Source of the DNA: Daphnia pulex
Taxonomy: Eukaryota > Arthropoda > Branchiopoda > Diplostraca > Daphniidae
DNA: 64,000 nucleotides
NCBI RefSeq assembly: GCF_021134715.1
Contig: NC_060017.1
Coordinates: 1-64,000, forward strand
Reading direction: 5' to 3'
Below the pieces are notes generated by a model. That model was not told the DNA's origin and ran no database searches. It saw nothing but the letters and a program-made list of their open reading frames with translations. Shown here piece after piece: positions 976-46,721 of the stretch (the first letter of the stretch is position 1; each line of letters begins with the position of its first letter). The position numbers were made by a program, and so were the translations under genes.

Positions 976-3900
976 CGCTGTGTTAGTAGGGCTGGCTTGA
1001 ATGCAGCCCAAATGTGGACGAAACTGAACTTACATTACCAACTACAAACAGAGGAGCACCTTCACCTCTTATGGCAAAATTACTACGACTTTGCATACAC
1101 CAAAGGTACTTACACACATGTCTGTGCAGACACCATACAAGCACTAAAGCCAATTTTTTGTTCTTTAGGTGATGACATGCGTACCCACATACAAAAGCTA
1201 TCTAACATCGCCGACAAACTGAGAGAACGAGATCAGCCCCTCAATGACATCCAGTTAGTGTCAAAAGCCTTGACCACATTGCCAGAAGCCTTCCGAATAG
1301 TACGATCAGTATGGGCTGCCGTGCCAGCAGCAGATCGAACACTCGATCACCTACTTCAACGTCTCCTATGCGAGGAAAGCGTCGTAAAATCCTACCAAAA
1401 GGCAAAGGCTCCAACTGAAGAAGCCTTTGCTGCAGGAGGTAGTGGAAGATCTGGATTCAGAGGTCGCGGTAGAGGAAGAGGAAACTTTCACGGAACACGT
1501 GGAGGTTACGTCGACAAGAAATCAAAGGGCCAATACGGAAGTAACACTGACTTACGTCCACGATGTGAAAGCTGCAGACTTCCTGGACATGAGATGAAAA
1601 ACTGCTATAAGCTGCATGAATACCCTGACAAGAAAGGAAACAATCCACCGAATCAAGCACTCATCTCATCATCTACTTTTGATCCCCGAAGCGTATTAGA
1701 ATTCTTTGCAGATTCTGGTGCTACAAAGCACATGTGCGATCAAAGAAGTTTCTTTACCAATTTCTTACCTATTGAACCAGGAAGTTGGACGGTCTCAGGT
1801 ACAAACACTAGCCATACTTACTCTTTTATCTCCATGTTAATCTATGGTATTAATTGTCATTCAGGCATCGGAGACAAAAAGCTTGATGTACTAGGATCCG
1901 GCAGAGTCACAATCTCAGTTGATGTAAACCAAAAGGTGACTTTAAAAACACTACAGGAAGTACTCTACGTACCTGGCCTTGGAGTAAATCTCTTCTCCAT
2001 TGGAGCCGCAACCGCCAGCGGATTAACAGCAGAATGTAAGGACGACAAAGTATTTTTCATTTCACAATTCATTAATAAAAACATCTACTGATCTCAATCT
2101 TATTGAACATTATCAAGGTTCTATTCACCAGAGATGGGGAATTAGTTCTCACTGGTGAACGAAAAGAGAACACCCTATACCAACTTAATTTCAAGCCCGA
2201 GATCCAGAAGACTCAAATTGAACTTGCTCGCATATCCATTGACATAGCATTCAATGCCGATCTTCGATCCTCCATCAACATCTGGCATCAACGCCTAGGC
2301 CACATTGGATATCACACACTGAAGAAAATGATCCAACAAGATTTGGTGATTGGCCTAAATGTCTCCGGGAATCTTGACATTCCTTCGACACTTTGCTCAG
2401 GATGCGAATTCGGAAAATCACCAGATCTCCATTAAGGACGACTTTAGTGGATACTTGACTGTATACTTTATGAAAAAGAAGTCTGAGGGCACTGCCTTTC
2501 TTCGCCTCTTTGCAGCGATGGTACTAAATGAAACCGGCAACTACATCCTCACTCTTCGATCCGACAATGGTAGAGCTGAATACATCAACAATGAAAACAA
2601 AGGTTAGTCAAACCAAATTAAATCATAGATTAAACAAAAAGTTTAACCTTTTTTTCTTTCTCAGCCTGGTTCGAGAAATGTGGAATCCGTCATGAGACAA
2701 GCGCTCCCTACACTCCCGAACAAAACGGTGTAGCCGAACGGACCAATCGAACAATACTAGATTCCGTTCGCTGTATGATCATCTCAAGTGGTCTTCCAGC
2801 AACTCTGTGGGCTGAGGCTGTCTCCTACACCACTTATGTTCGCAACAGAGTTCTCTCTCGGACATCCAATATTACTCCCTTCGAGCACTGGAACGGAAGG
2901 AAGCCGGACGTTTATCAGATTTACGTATTTTTGGAGCATGGGCCTTCGTACGAGTCCCTCGACCCCCCCCCCCCCCCCGACACAGCAAAACTGGATGCTA
3001 GAAGCAAAGAAGGCATATTCGTAGGGCGGTGCAACACTCAAAACGCATCAAGAGTATTCATCCCTGACAACAGAAAGATTGAAGTCAGCAAAGACGTTAA
3101 GGTTGATGAGGAAGCCCTCTACCGTGACATGAAGAATCTACCATCCTCAACGGTAACCCCAAGCATTAAACTTTTTTTTTCTTGCGTCATTACTTATATC
3201 TTTATCGATTACCATAGCATGAACTGAGAATCACTGACACGGCAGATGAAGAAATGAATGTAGACGAAGCTGAACCACTCGCTCATCCAAATGGTCCTCA
3301 ATCAGACGAAGCTTCAACTCCGTTTACTGACGCGAATCTCATCGAAGACGTGCCTATCCATGACAATCCAATCGTCAACGAGGAGGAAACTCTTCCTGAA
3401 ATCATGATTCACGAGGACAAGACTCCTTCCACTACTAAAACTTATCAAAGAGATTAAGACTCTCGTCCTCAACAGCGAGTGCGCCAGTCAACTCGTAAAC
3501 CGAAGTACAGCGAGAGATTCCTCGAATGGCAACAATCCTTGGCCAAACAAGCAACTTTATCCAGCGTATCAGCCGAAACCCAAGTAGTCAACACTCCTTC
3601 TCTTTCACTGGAACTCGAGTTATCTGGAGGCCATCTCCTGTGCTGATTCCGAATACTGGATACCCGCCATCTTTGAAGAATATTGTCACCGGTGAGGAGG
3701 CTAACACGTTCGGTTTTGAGAGCGACCTGAAGCTGTTTGGTAAAAGAGAAACAAACAGACTGGAAGTCGCGACTCCACCACCGACACACACACCAACACA
3801 GAGAAAAGTCCAACACCGGAGAAACATGCTCACCCTTTTTGTATGTTTCTCGTCCTTGATAACTATTGTTGTCAAGCGTCAGGGAATCGTTAAGTTCTTA

Positions 3901-5490
3901 GGACTGGGATCGTATGGGAAACGTCGGTCCTGGGACTGCCAAATGTCTGTTCTGGGAACCAATCAATTGCTACGTTATTGAAACGTGACAATATGACTTG
4001 CTCCTACAAAACAGCACCTGGACACTCTGTCGACTTCCACCAAACCGGAAGGCGATTGAAGGCAAATGGTCGATGAAATTCAAGCCTGGATTCAAGTCAA
4101 CATCCACAAGATATAAAGCCCGTTTTGTCATTAAAGGGTACTCGCAAGTATTCGGACTGGATTACACCGAAACCTACGCACTCGTAGCCAAAAATTACTC
4201 TTTCCGTCTTATCCTGGCCATAGCTGCTGCAAAAAATATCGAGATGATCCAGCTCGACGTGAAGACAGCCTTCTTATATGGAACGCTGGACGAAGAGATA
4301 TTCATGAAACAGCCGAATGAACGTCATCCCTGGAAAGGAAGAAGAAGTCTGCCACCTTGTCAAAAGCATCTACGGCCTAAAACAAGCCTCCAGAGTATGG
4401 AACATCAAGTTCAATGAACTTATCATTAAGTTTGGCCTAACTAGAAGTCAAGCGGACCCATGCATCTACTACCGACACCTCCGTCTGGGGGAGGCTGTTG
4501 AAGAGCTAACCATCTTTATCCTATACGTCGATGACGGACTCATCCTGAGTAACATCAAGTCAATTCTCACAGACATGGTGGAATTCCTCGGTAAAGAATT
4601 TAAAGTTCGATCTCTTCCCGCAGATCGCTTCATAGGTTTCGACATTAATCGCAACCGACATCTAGGAACCATTCATCTCTCACAACCGGAATACGTCCAA
4701 AAAATTCTAGAGCGATTCAACATGAGCAACTGCAATCCTCTCGCGGTCCCAGCCGATCCATGTGTCAAGCTATCGCCACAAATGAGCCCACAAAACGAAG
4801 AAGACAGGAAAGAGATGACCAATTTTCCCTTCATGGAATGCATCGGGTCAGTAATGCACCTCACACATCTAACGCGGCCCGACATTGCATATGCAGTTGG
4901 ACAAGTATCCAGATATTCGCAGAACCCCGGCAAGGAGCATTGGAAGGCTTTGAAACGTATTCTAGCCTATCTCAAAAAAACAATCAACTTTGGTCTTCTC
5001 TTTGGTGGTGGAAGGAGCGAAATATGTGGTTATTGTGATTCGGACTACGCCGGAGATCTGGAGAGCAGAAGATCCACGTCAGGAGCCGTCTTCACTCTGC
5101 ACAATGGTGCCGTGTCATGGTTCAGTCGGTGTCAGACATTGGTAGCCCTCTCCACAACAGAGGCCGAGTTCATTTCAGCAGCGGAAGGTACAAAAGAAGG
5201 GATTTGGCTCAAACGCCTCCATCTCGAACTGGGAGCTACTGAATCGGCAACACCTCTTCGATGTGATAATCAAGGCGCTATTGCACTGATCCATGACCCT
5301 GTATTTCATCAGCGCACGAAGCACATGGATGTGCGCTTCTTCTTCATACGGGACGCTCAACAAGAGGGACGAATCAACGTCTCATACATTGAAACTGAAT
5401 CTCAACTGGTGGACATCTTTACAAGCCCTCGCCGTCCCAAGATTCGAGAAACTACGCAAAGAACTCAACATTTGCGAACTTTCAGAGTAG
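976..5490 (+). pseudogene. copia gag-pol coding remains with five intron-like interruptions
   Basis: Visible landmarks: UBN2-type gag around 1010-1400; CCHC knuckle (CESCRLPGHEMKNCYKLH) around 1567-1620; protease motif DSGATKHM around 1710; pre-integrase WHQRLGHIGYHTLKKM from about 2280; integrase SDNGRAEY at 2560 and NGVAERTNRTI at 2730; RT YVDDGLILSN at about 4525, with the YVDD pair intact; RNase H CDSDYAGDLESRRSTSG at about 5035 and KHMDVRFFF at about 5320. Five GT-AG segments of 62-68 bp (1106-1168, 1799-1864, 2050-2117, 2603-2664, 3153-3217) fall exactly where family homology breaks, and removing each keeps or restores the frame. A deletion near 2430, a stop at 3455 and frameshifts in 3458-3997 and near 4320 mean the copy is not intact. 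A 16-C run lies at 2963-2978. Confidence 0.82.
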
Positions 5491-5796
5491 AACTGTTTGA
5501 GGGACGATTATTGCATTTCAGCACTTGGACACTTGACTTGAGGGACGTGTTGTATTCTTTATTTTTCAACTCAAGCGTTCCCCCAACTATGTTGCTGAAC
5601 CCAACTGTTGCAAAAACCTTTCTCTTCTACTTCTTCTTGTCAAAGTTCCCTTCGTCTGCTATACGACGTCTTTCACACTTCTTCTTCTACTTCAACCACG
5701 TTTCGACATATAAGTATTCTGTCTGAAATTGTCATCTGTAAAGTGTGTGTTCTCGTATAGTATACTTTGGTATTAAACTCTCTTTATTTCTATCAA
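980..5796 (+). mobile_element. Decayed Ty1/copia LTR retrotransposon lacking a visible 5' LTR
   Basis: Domain order is typical of copia: gag, CCHC knuckle, aspartic protease, GAG-pre-integrase, integrase, reverse transcriptase, RNase H. This places it in the Ty1/copia group rather than gypsy, where integrase follows RNase H. A probable 3' LTR follows at 5548-5796. Near 2400-2440 the normal link between the pre-integrase zinc region and the integrase core is missing, together with the first catalytic Asp region. In-frame stops and frameshifts occur, for example the TAA at 3455-3457 and a shift near 4320. Five short GT-AG segments interrupt the coding region. The left boundary is uncertain. Confidence 0.88.
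5548..5796 (+). repeat. Probable 3' LTR of the copia element
   Basis: A purine-rich stretch (TTGAGGGACG, 5538-5547) resembling a copia polypurine tract directly precedes TGTTG at 5548, the usual copia LTR start. A TATAAG box lies at about 5709. The LTR plausibly ends at TCTATCA near 5796, immediately before LINE sequence. The end is an estimate because no second LTR is present for comparison. Confidence 0.55.
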
Positions 5797-5800
5797 GAGC

Positions 5801-8141
5801 ATGCGTTCATCATTCTTAATTCTAACATATAAACTCTACAGATACGTACCGAAGGATTGGAAATGCGCAATTGTGGCACCTGCCCAAAAGCTAAACAAAC
5901 GAGCAGAAAGCGCCGACTCATACAGACCAATTTCCCTCACTTCATGTCTCTGTAAAGCTATGGAGAAAATTATTAACAACAGACTGAAGTGGCATCTAGA
6001 CCGTCTAAACTTACTCCCCAAGGTCCAGACTGGGTTCCGAAGAGGATGCACCACCACAGACAACCTGATCCGGATAGAGTCAGCAATCAAACGAGGCTTC
6101 AAAAACAGCCACTCCACCACAGCAATCTTCTTAGACATATCCGAAGCGTATGACAATGCCTGGATAACTGGACTCCTGTTTAAATTAACAAAAGCAGAAT
6201 TTAAAGGACGCACCCTGTTATGGCTTAAGAACTTTCTCACCGGCAGAAGCATCAGAACCCGGGTAGATGACGACCTCTCTGATGAAAGAGAGATATTCAA
6301 AGGAGTACCCCAAGGAAGTGTCCTCAGCCCCCTACTTTTCAACATCATGCTCGCGAACTTTCCAATGCCGGACAACGGATGCGAAATATCCCTTTTCGCC
6401 GATTACATCGCGATCTACTACACCGCTAAGACGAAGAAAGATGCAGAGGGACCGCTCCAGGACCTACTAGATAAGATAGAAGAATGGGCCATCAGTTGGA
6501 ACTTCCAATTCTCCGTGGATAAATGTGCTTCACTAACATTCACAAAGAAAAGGACAAATGAACCAGAACACCGATTTAAACTCAGTGGAGCCGACATAAG
6601 TGACGAAGTTCTCCAATACAAATTCCTAGGAATCACATTGGATCAAAAACTCTCATTGGAACCCCACACGATGACAATCATCAACAAGATACAGAAGAGA
6701 GCTAACTTAATCCGTACGTTGACATACGGAAAGAATACCTTGAAACTGCCACTCCTTATCCGTATCTTCAAAGCCATGATCCGGAGCGCCTACGACTACG
6801 GCTCGTTCGTCCTTGGATCCATGCGTAAAACAAGAAAAAAAAAGTTTAATCAAGCCCGAAATCAGATTCTCCGCATCATACTAGGCTGCTTTAAATCTAC
6901 CCCAAGAGCTTTACTAAACATGGAAACCGGCATCCACCCAGTTGAGAGTATATGGGAACAACTAGCCTACAGATACCTCATCAGACTTAACGAAAAACCA
7001 TGGAACCCAGCGTATGACACAGTCCAACAACTAATCAAAGCAACGGCGAAATGGAAACACAACAGCACCCCAGCAGCCATTATCCATCTGAGGAAACTAG
7101 ACCAGACAACTAAAACCCTCTTCAAATTTCCCGTCTCCCGCCATGGAAACACATTCCCACCAAATACTTCCCTCTTAAGAAAAAAGAAGCACTCAACTCA
7201 ACTCGAACAGCCCGAATCTTCCTGTCCCTTACTTCATTACAAGACCCCAACCACTTAGCAATCTACACTGATGGATCAGTGTGCGAGTCTTCCAAAACAT
7301 CCACATGTGCATTCTACGTTCCCCTACATGGAGAAAAAAAGGCCTGGTTCCTTCAAAAACCCACCGACAGCTTTGTCGAAGAACTATATGCCATTAGGCA
7401 AGCCCTCTACTACCTGAACGAGCATGATATTCCGTCAGTCACCATCTACACTGACTCCAAATCAGCTGTTCAAGCAAGTTCAAATTTCAAATGGGAAGCA
7501 AGTACAGCTGTACCTGAAATAATAAATCAAATTATAAATCTTAATTCATCGGGGACCCAAGTCACATTAATGTGGATACCTTCACATGCTGGGATACCAA
7601 GAAACGAAATTGCTGACCCACTGGCCACCGAAATCCGAAAAAAACGAAAAAAGGACCTGGGAAAATACAATCCAAAATAAAATAGACATTAACCAAACTA
7701 TTAACAAAGTCAAAACTAAATAAAACAACATCACCTTCAAGAAACTGAAAACACAATCAAACAACATGGCGGTGACGCAAAAAAACGAGACTGGAGTCTT
7801 ACCTTGGCGCATTAACAAGAAACAAAATATCCAAACAGCAATGCTTCGGTTACGCAGCGGGCACAATAAACTAAATCACTTCATGGGCAGATTGGACTCC
7901 GAAATACCTGATGAATGTCCTCAGCCCAGAACAAGAAGACGCGTCACATGTGCTCCTCTACTGCAAAGAATATTCTGAAGCGAGGGACAACCTCGAAAGG
8001 AAACTCCTCCCCCTCAACATCCCGATCGACGTACCGACCCTACTAGGACTGAATGGCTCCATCCCTAAACACACGCAAACGAAAATAGTGGTTTCCGTCA
8101 TAGCCTTCCTTCTCGAATCACATCTTATTGAAAGAATTTAA
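5801..8141 (+). pseudogene. LINE ORF2 remains: RT, RNase H, C-terminal Cys/His region
   Basis: RT motifs run through YRPISLTSCLCKAMEKIINN (about 5920), FRRGCTTTDN, FLDISEAYDNAW and GVPQGSVLSPLLFN (about 6303). The catalytic FADD box reads FADYIAIY at about 6397, so one metal-binding Asp is replaced by Tyr. The RT frame ends at 7258. The RNase H domain (YTDGS about 7265, EELY about 7380, YTDSKSA about 7450, NEIAD about 7605) lies in another frame, and the C-terminal HVLLYC region (7911-8141) in a third. The frame change near 7180 sits at an A-rich run. The copy is inactive by sequence. Confidence 0.85.
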
Positions 8142-46646: not shown

Positions 46647-46721
46647 AGGTCCCAACGAGACTCGAACTCGTGATCTCCTGCTTACTAGGCAGGCGCTTTG
46701 CCATCTAAGCCATGAGACCTT
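46647..46721 (-). tRNA. tRNA-Thr (AGT)
   Basis: Read on the minus strand from 46721. The acceptor stem AGGTCTC pairs with GGGACCT; the anticodon stem CCTGC/GCAGG encloses loop CTAGTAA, giving anticodon AGT; the T arm is ACGAG-TTCGAGT-CTCGT. The A box TGGCTTAGATGG fits the pol III consensus. A T-run (TTTTC) follows the discriminator A and can serve as pol III terminator. No intron; CCA not encoded, as usual in eukaryotes. Confidence 0.95.

Follow-up and report, generated by a model that had tools for sequence, protein, structure and literature searches.

Retroelements are expected to lose their introns when spliced RNA is copied, and such loss is the classic proof of an RNA intermediate. Ogre elements are of the Ty3/gypsy type and have one intron between protease and reverse transcriptase (RT), and Penelope-like elements, reportedly treated by Arkhipova and others in 2003, form a different retroelement class, without the Copia architecture of LTR, integrase and RVT_2. 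In the excerpts of PMC12786077 used here, the intron of the plant LTR element Ogre is removed by splicing and the unspliced RNA is presumably copied, while EVADE and BARE (plant Ty1/copia) and Cer1 (C. elegans) are LTR elements that divide their transcripts by splicing, Cer1 encoding a protein needed for export of the unspliced RNA. Translation and replication of BARE proceed via distinct RNA pools (PMC3735527, in part), and Penelope-like elements keep introns through retrotransposition (PMC3846280, in part). As for the host considered here, excerpts of PMC5427498 put the median intron length of two Daphnia pulex assemblies at 63 and 77 bp, and give lengths of 72 and 76 bp with GC contents of 20 and 25% for its gained introns. 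No description of a multi-intron LTR element that keeps its introns was found in the open-licence literature, which leaves subscription papers and Repbase mostly outside and makes a prior description possible; the words "intron" and "splic" occur nowhere in the main text of two Daphnia and crustacean LTR-retrotransposon papers.

The locus studied here lies in a window, by which we mean the whole stretch of DNA analysed, of 64,000 bases (1–64000 of contig C1; D. pulex assembly of 133,188,837 bp in 13 contigs). Judged from its sequence, the element at the start of this window is a decayed member of a Ty1/copia lineage with an intron-split gag-pol. It is encoded on the plus strand, and the contig start cuts off its 5' LTR and the 5' end of its intron 0. 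The remaining 3' part of intron 0 (1–309; gag site aa48, phase 0) contains the hairpins TTGC-TCAC-GCAA (13–24) and TTGC-TTAC-GCAA (67–78) and ends with the 3' splice site ...ttttttag at 309, the gag exon starting at 310 as in the relative L031. This exon A is divided into a first part (310–438, 70% to exon A of L031 by tblastn) and a second part (992–1105, protein match to relatives) by a MITE-like insert of 553 bp (439–991), which has 14-bp terminal inverted repeats (CCCTACTAACACRG; 13/14 bases pair) and is not present in the relatives in a tblastn comparison of exon A. Thereafter follow intron 1 (1106–1168, 63 bp; site 1, aa128 phase 1), exon B with gag and the start of Pol_BBD (1169–1798; Pfam, 64% to L031), intron 2 (1799–1864, 66 bp; site 2, aa337 phase 1), exon C with Pol_BBD (1865–2049; Pfam and match to relatives), intron 3 (2050–2117, 68 bp; site 3, aa400 phase 0), the first part of exon D with pre-integrase and integrase (2118–2602; Pfam), intron 4 (2603–2664, 62 bp, 24% GC; found in the window copy only), the second part of exon D with integrase (2665–3152), intron 5 (3153–3217, 65 bp; site 5, after integrase), and the last exon with linker, RT and RNase H region (3218–5489; RVT_2 by Pfam). 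A purine-rich tract precedes the 3' LTR (~5548–5840, TGTTG...CTACA, delimited from the LTR termini of L031 and L032), which is the only LTR visible. Decay is evident in the loss of ~30–40 integrase codons near 2418–2432, in a reading frame that is broken both near 2920 and at a tract of 16 C (2963–2978), and in the last exon, where ~300 bp between 3683 and 3989 are foreign.

Nine exon pieces were submitted to Pfam, of which six matched Copia families in Copia order (Retrotran_gag_2, Pol_BBD twice, gag_pre-integrs, rve_3 and RVT_2 twice), and of these matches, rve_3 and one Pol_BBD piece fell slightly short of the curated cut-off. The other three pieces, all short, had no Pfam match. The succession of gag, protease-side domain, integrase and RT is that of the Ty1/copia class. 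Elsewhere in the window, frames resembling a non-LTR (jockey-like) reverse transcriptase and an RNase H region, named by eye, occupy ~5842–8141 directly after the 3' LTR, and Rfam identified one tRNA gene at 46647–46719 on the minus strand.

A first-pass annotation had proposed that introns 1–5 are spliceosomal-type introns within a Copia gag-pol, which is unusual, and this reading gained support from the GT–AG ends, the disruption of the frame and the gaps at the same sites in relatives. Its coordinates were exact to the base, each segment beginning with GT, ending with AG and sitting exactly at a break in Copia homology. The segments were also rightly called host-like in size, at 62–68 bp compared with the D. 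pulex medians of 63 and 77 bp (PMC5427498, in part). Three of them are indeed not multiples of three, but the stops ascribed to all three occur in the 68-bp (two in-frame) and 62-bp (three) segments and not in the 65-bp intron 5, which, when read through, shifts the frame into a stop at 3225–3227; the 63-bp and 66-bp segments are open when read through. Translated insertions were ruled out as an explanation, since in many copies the segments contain stops or throw the frame off. The segments exceed what chance would produce, since relatives found by protein search alone show gaps at the same codon and phase, with GT near the start and AG near the end. As remarked before, the five window introns show no clear mutual resemblance (across the ten pairwise comparisons, the observed score was attained by 4 to 99 of 100 shuffles). 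An introner-like process, which had been offered as one origin, finds no footing here: introner elements are near-identical introns at many places, whereas the five window introns are not alike and a genome-wide search, which covered intron 4, returned a single match, namely intron 4 itself.

The RT query yielded at least 114 matches in the genome and the integrase query at least 125. Introns were surveyed in the window, three genomic stretches and 30 integrase loci, several of which are the same elements, using a protein-to-genome aligner that accepts only GT..AG introns and will also call them in stretches of low homology. Aligner introns at ~aa 215–240 and 740–880 fell within such stretches and were dropped, as was one at 467–1006 in the window, where it corresponds to the inverted-repeat insert. 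Site 5 was positioned manually on the alignment. L066 and L067 lack the 5' half and were not informative for the intron map.

At sites 1–3, every nearest relative that retains the region has an intron, with codon and phase unchanged; these introns are 59–80 bp long (59 bp at site 1 of L032), and their sequences differ between families and are unalignable in diverged ones. Within the 27 rows of the integrase tree presented below, site 1 holds an intron in 12, none in nine, and is unscored in six. Introns at sites 2 and 3 are found in the window copy, L031, L032, L033, L035, L038 and L054, and were scored absent in the other 20 rows, among which exon C is unmatched in L045 and L056 and only partially matched in L058 and L062. 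Site 5 is occupied in five of these seven (the window copy, L031, L032, L033 and L035), L038 having lost the region and L054 being unscored; the intron measures ~241 bp in the L033 family versus 65–77 bp in the window copy and L031 (77 bp in the latter). L031 and L032 have introns 0, 1, 2, 3 and 5; in L064, L065 and L042 the set is introns 0 and 1. The first-pass annotation had held that a lack of intron-less relatives would count against it, and relatives without introns 2, 3 and 5 do exist with unbroken frames, some of them multi-copy. Intron 4 is lacking in all 34 loci, duplicates of one element included, whose integrase match spans the site, with no extra or missing residue across query residues 196–216. 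Other Copia lineages have introns at sites of their own: L051 (1310–1371) and L058 (1190–1269) at a common site near aa 358–361, L055 (1322–1384) at aa 366, and L061 (562–629) at aa 124.

Eight stretches or elements were examined for LTR pairs, and five intron-bearing relatives could be dated. The paired LTRs are 99.66% identical over 291 bp in L031, 98.48% over 263 bp in L032, 99.32% over 295 bp in L064, 100% over 291 bp in L065 and 99.68% over 314 bp in L042, and each element is flanked by a 5-bp target-site duplication (AAAAT, GATGT, GTAAT, ACCAC and CTTTA, respectively). These five thus possess the paired LTRs with TG..CA ends and the short duplication that are expected of Ty1/copia. No LTR pair was found for L066 and L067, and L033 belongs to a tandem array with shared LTRs. 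Because the LTR pairs are 98.5–100% identical and the 5-bp target duplications are in place, the five relatives inserted recently with the introns inside. It follows that the suggestion of a domesticated or long-resident copy is unsupported, as the introns are a family trait, present in relatives that inserted recently and have LTRs and target-site duplications; nor does the window copy, which is broken, have the character of a domesticated host gene. A search for spliced, intron-less junctions in two families, one junction each, gave no genome match at ≤3 mismatches for site 3 of the L033 family or site 1 of the L065 family; the exon–intron boundary control, run for the L033 family only, gave four.

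Our favoured reading, which we regard as probable, is that this Copia lineage makes its proteins from spliced mRNA and copies itself from a distinct, unspliced RNA, which is packaged and then reverse-transcribed, and that it has stayed mobile with its introns in place. The copied RNA would have to be unspliced because reverse transcription of spliced RNA would erase the introns, and the protein needs spliced RNA. We thus infer splicing, two RNA pools and packaging of the unspliced RNA: splicing of the element transcript would yield the gag-pol mRNA, and a second pool of the same transcript would escape splicing, be packaged and be reverse-transcribed. New insertions would in this way keep every intron, and new introns could accumulate. 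Regulated splicing is the only origin offered by the first-pass annotation that is left standing, as a probable one.

Selection on the integrase exon bears on the strongest competing explanation, according to which the intron-bearing copies are passengers whose unspliced RNA is copied in trans by the proteins of other Copia elements. Such proteins could come from the related families whose frames run unbroken through sites 2, 3 and 5, and both the window copy and L032 (broken in its gag frames) are defective, yet the LTRs of L032 are 98.5% identical. However, in L031, L033 and L065 the exons have open frames throughout their matches, and the integrase exons of intron-bearing families are under purifying selection. 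Among ten pairs analysed, dN/dS is 0.050 at a dS of 2.18 for L033/L038 and 0.078 at a dS of 1.50 for L039/L065, and these two informative pairs indicate purifying selection of apparently long standing. Close pairs with dS under 0.04 are weak (0.11 for L032/L033, 0.31 for L064/L065 and 0.50 for L042/L050), L033/L035 has no synonymous change, and L031/L033, L031/L038, L031/L039 and L044/L046 are saturated. We consider the passenger explanation improbable, with roughly the standing of a minor alternative. Conserved intron positions, recent insertions and purifying selection together argue that the lineage has long been mobile with its introns.

Spread at the DNA level, through segmental duplication, LTR recombination or circle re-integration, would make splicing irrelevant to intron retention, and one family does form a tandem array on C8 (~5280452–5293612; L033 and L035) of at least three Copia units of ~5.76 kb. 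Still, the five dated elements each have their own 5-bp target duplication, and the similarity ends at the LTR ends: L032/L033 and L064/L065 are near-identical copies on different chromosomes whose likeness is confined to the element itself, LTRs included. This leaves DNA-level spread as a rather unlikely account. Other tandem pairs ~6 kb apart are L015/L016 on C3 and L017/L018 on C10. Much less plausible is an antisense transcript as template, in which the introns would not be recognised, as proposed for intron-keeping Penelope-like elements (PMC3846280, in part); the relatives keep LTR ends typical of sense-RNA reverse transcription and a primer-binding-like site after the 5' LTR. That site presumably matches a tRNA. 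A post-insertion origin of the segments within a single resident or domesticated copy is the least credible of all, being refuted for sites 1, 2, 3 and 5 by their occurrence in insertions on other chromosomes and at odds with a window copy that is broken rather than a preserved gene, and it retains intron 4 alone, seen only in this copy, whose gain could precede or follow insertion.

The integrase tree (27 rows, midpoint root) groups the window copy, whose row fills only 42% of the columns, with L054, L031, L038, L032, L033 and L035 (support 100/98); L039 and L040 join this clade at 100/99. The minimum number of changes on the tree is one for site 1 (21 rows), one for sites 2 and 3 (27 rows), one for site 4 (26 rows) and one for the aa 358 site (23 rows). 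Site 0 requires two (17 rows, 15 present and two absent, with 10 unscored), having been scored from the acceptor alone in the window copy, L038 and L058. Gain and loss are indistinguishable for site 1 because the root is the midpoint, and gain appears the simpler reading for sites 2, 3 and 4. One change each at sites 1–4 suggests stepwise intron gain.

Intron 0 differs from the others in size and content. Its donor follows a conserved ...LP(E/A)(E/Q) in L031, L033, L039, L064, L042, L043, L044, L046 and L052/L053, and its length is 287–596 bp in the clade of the window copy versus 67–78 bp in L043, L044 and L056. Repeated hairpins with the same stem were tested against 500 dinucleotide shuffles. 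The stem CAGC occurs in six copies in L032 and five in L033, and ACAT in four copies, within 42-bp tandem repeats, in L064 and L065, numbers reached in 0/500 shuffles; the two TTGC copies in the window were reached in 12/500. No excess over shuffles was found in intron 0 of L031 and L039, so the notion of hairpins in every family was dropped, nor in eleven control stretches (exons, LTRs and intron 5). L064 and L065, otherwise nearly identical insertions, differ in the copy number of the 42-bp repeat. Predicted pair probabilities of the hairpins are ~0.7–0.9 in L038, 0.3–0.95 in L065, 0.1–0.7 in L033, 0.2–0.7 in the window copy and <0.1 in L039.

The 15-mer TCAGCCYTAACGCTG has 19 matches in the genome (133 Mb), compared with one for the reversed control, and every one of the 19 runs in the element's sense. 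Intron 0 encloses ten of them between its two splice sites; a further six precede its acceptor, the donor falling beyond the extracted sequence, two are in the third unit of the C8 array just past the extracted sequence, and one is on C10. The last (C10:11698948) is a single motif near RT fragments that are 67–68% like the window, probably a relic of the same clade. The first eight blastn matches between intron 0 of L033 and L038 are all this motif, and intron 0 of L031 shares 13 of its bases. The window motif CATTGCTYACGCAA has three genome matches, two in the window and one on C7, with one for its control; apart from a T-run, blastn found no intron-0 motif common to the window copy and other families.

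Retroviral packaging signals lie beyond the splice donor. By analogy, the repeated, family-specific hairpins of intron 0, which splicing would remove, might mark the RNA to be copied and are suggested as a candidate signal selecting unspliced RNA. The fuller proposal, that the array tags only unspliced RNA for packaging as in retroviruses, splicing thereby deciding between translation and replication, with introns immune to loss and slowly collected by the element, is tentative and, in our estimation, somewhat doubtful. The chief competing idea is that the hairpins serve as a DNA-binding site or enhancer; the repeats could also be relics of tandem duplication.

An LTR lineage that moves with its introns and seems to acquire new ones is a natural test of how genomic RNA is separated from mRNA, and its dated insertions let intron gain be tracked copy by copy in a genome thought to be fast at gaining introns. 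Intron 4 of the window copy (62 bp, 24% GC) resembles the newly gained introns of D. pulex described in excerpts of PMC5427498; those were counted in host genes, and the parts of PMC5427498 and PMC4202315 consulted make no mention of transposons. With Penelope-like elements, as portrayed in part of PMC3846280, the lineage shares the retention of introns through retrotransposition. The likeness to Ogre lies in an intron within an LTR element whose unspliced RNA is presumably copied (PMC12786077, in part), and the difference in the Copia gag-pol studied here, which has as many as six introns, several of them common to families. In EVADE, BARE and Cer1, as far as the excerpts of PMC12786077 describe them, splicing leads to a subgenomic gag RNA or to an export-aiding protein, whereas here the full gag-pol itself seems to need splicing.
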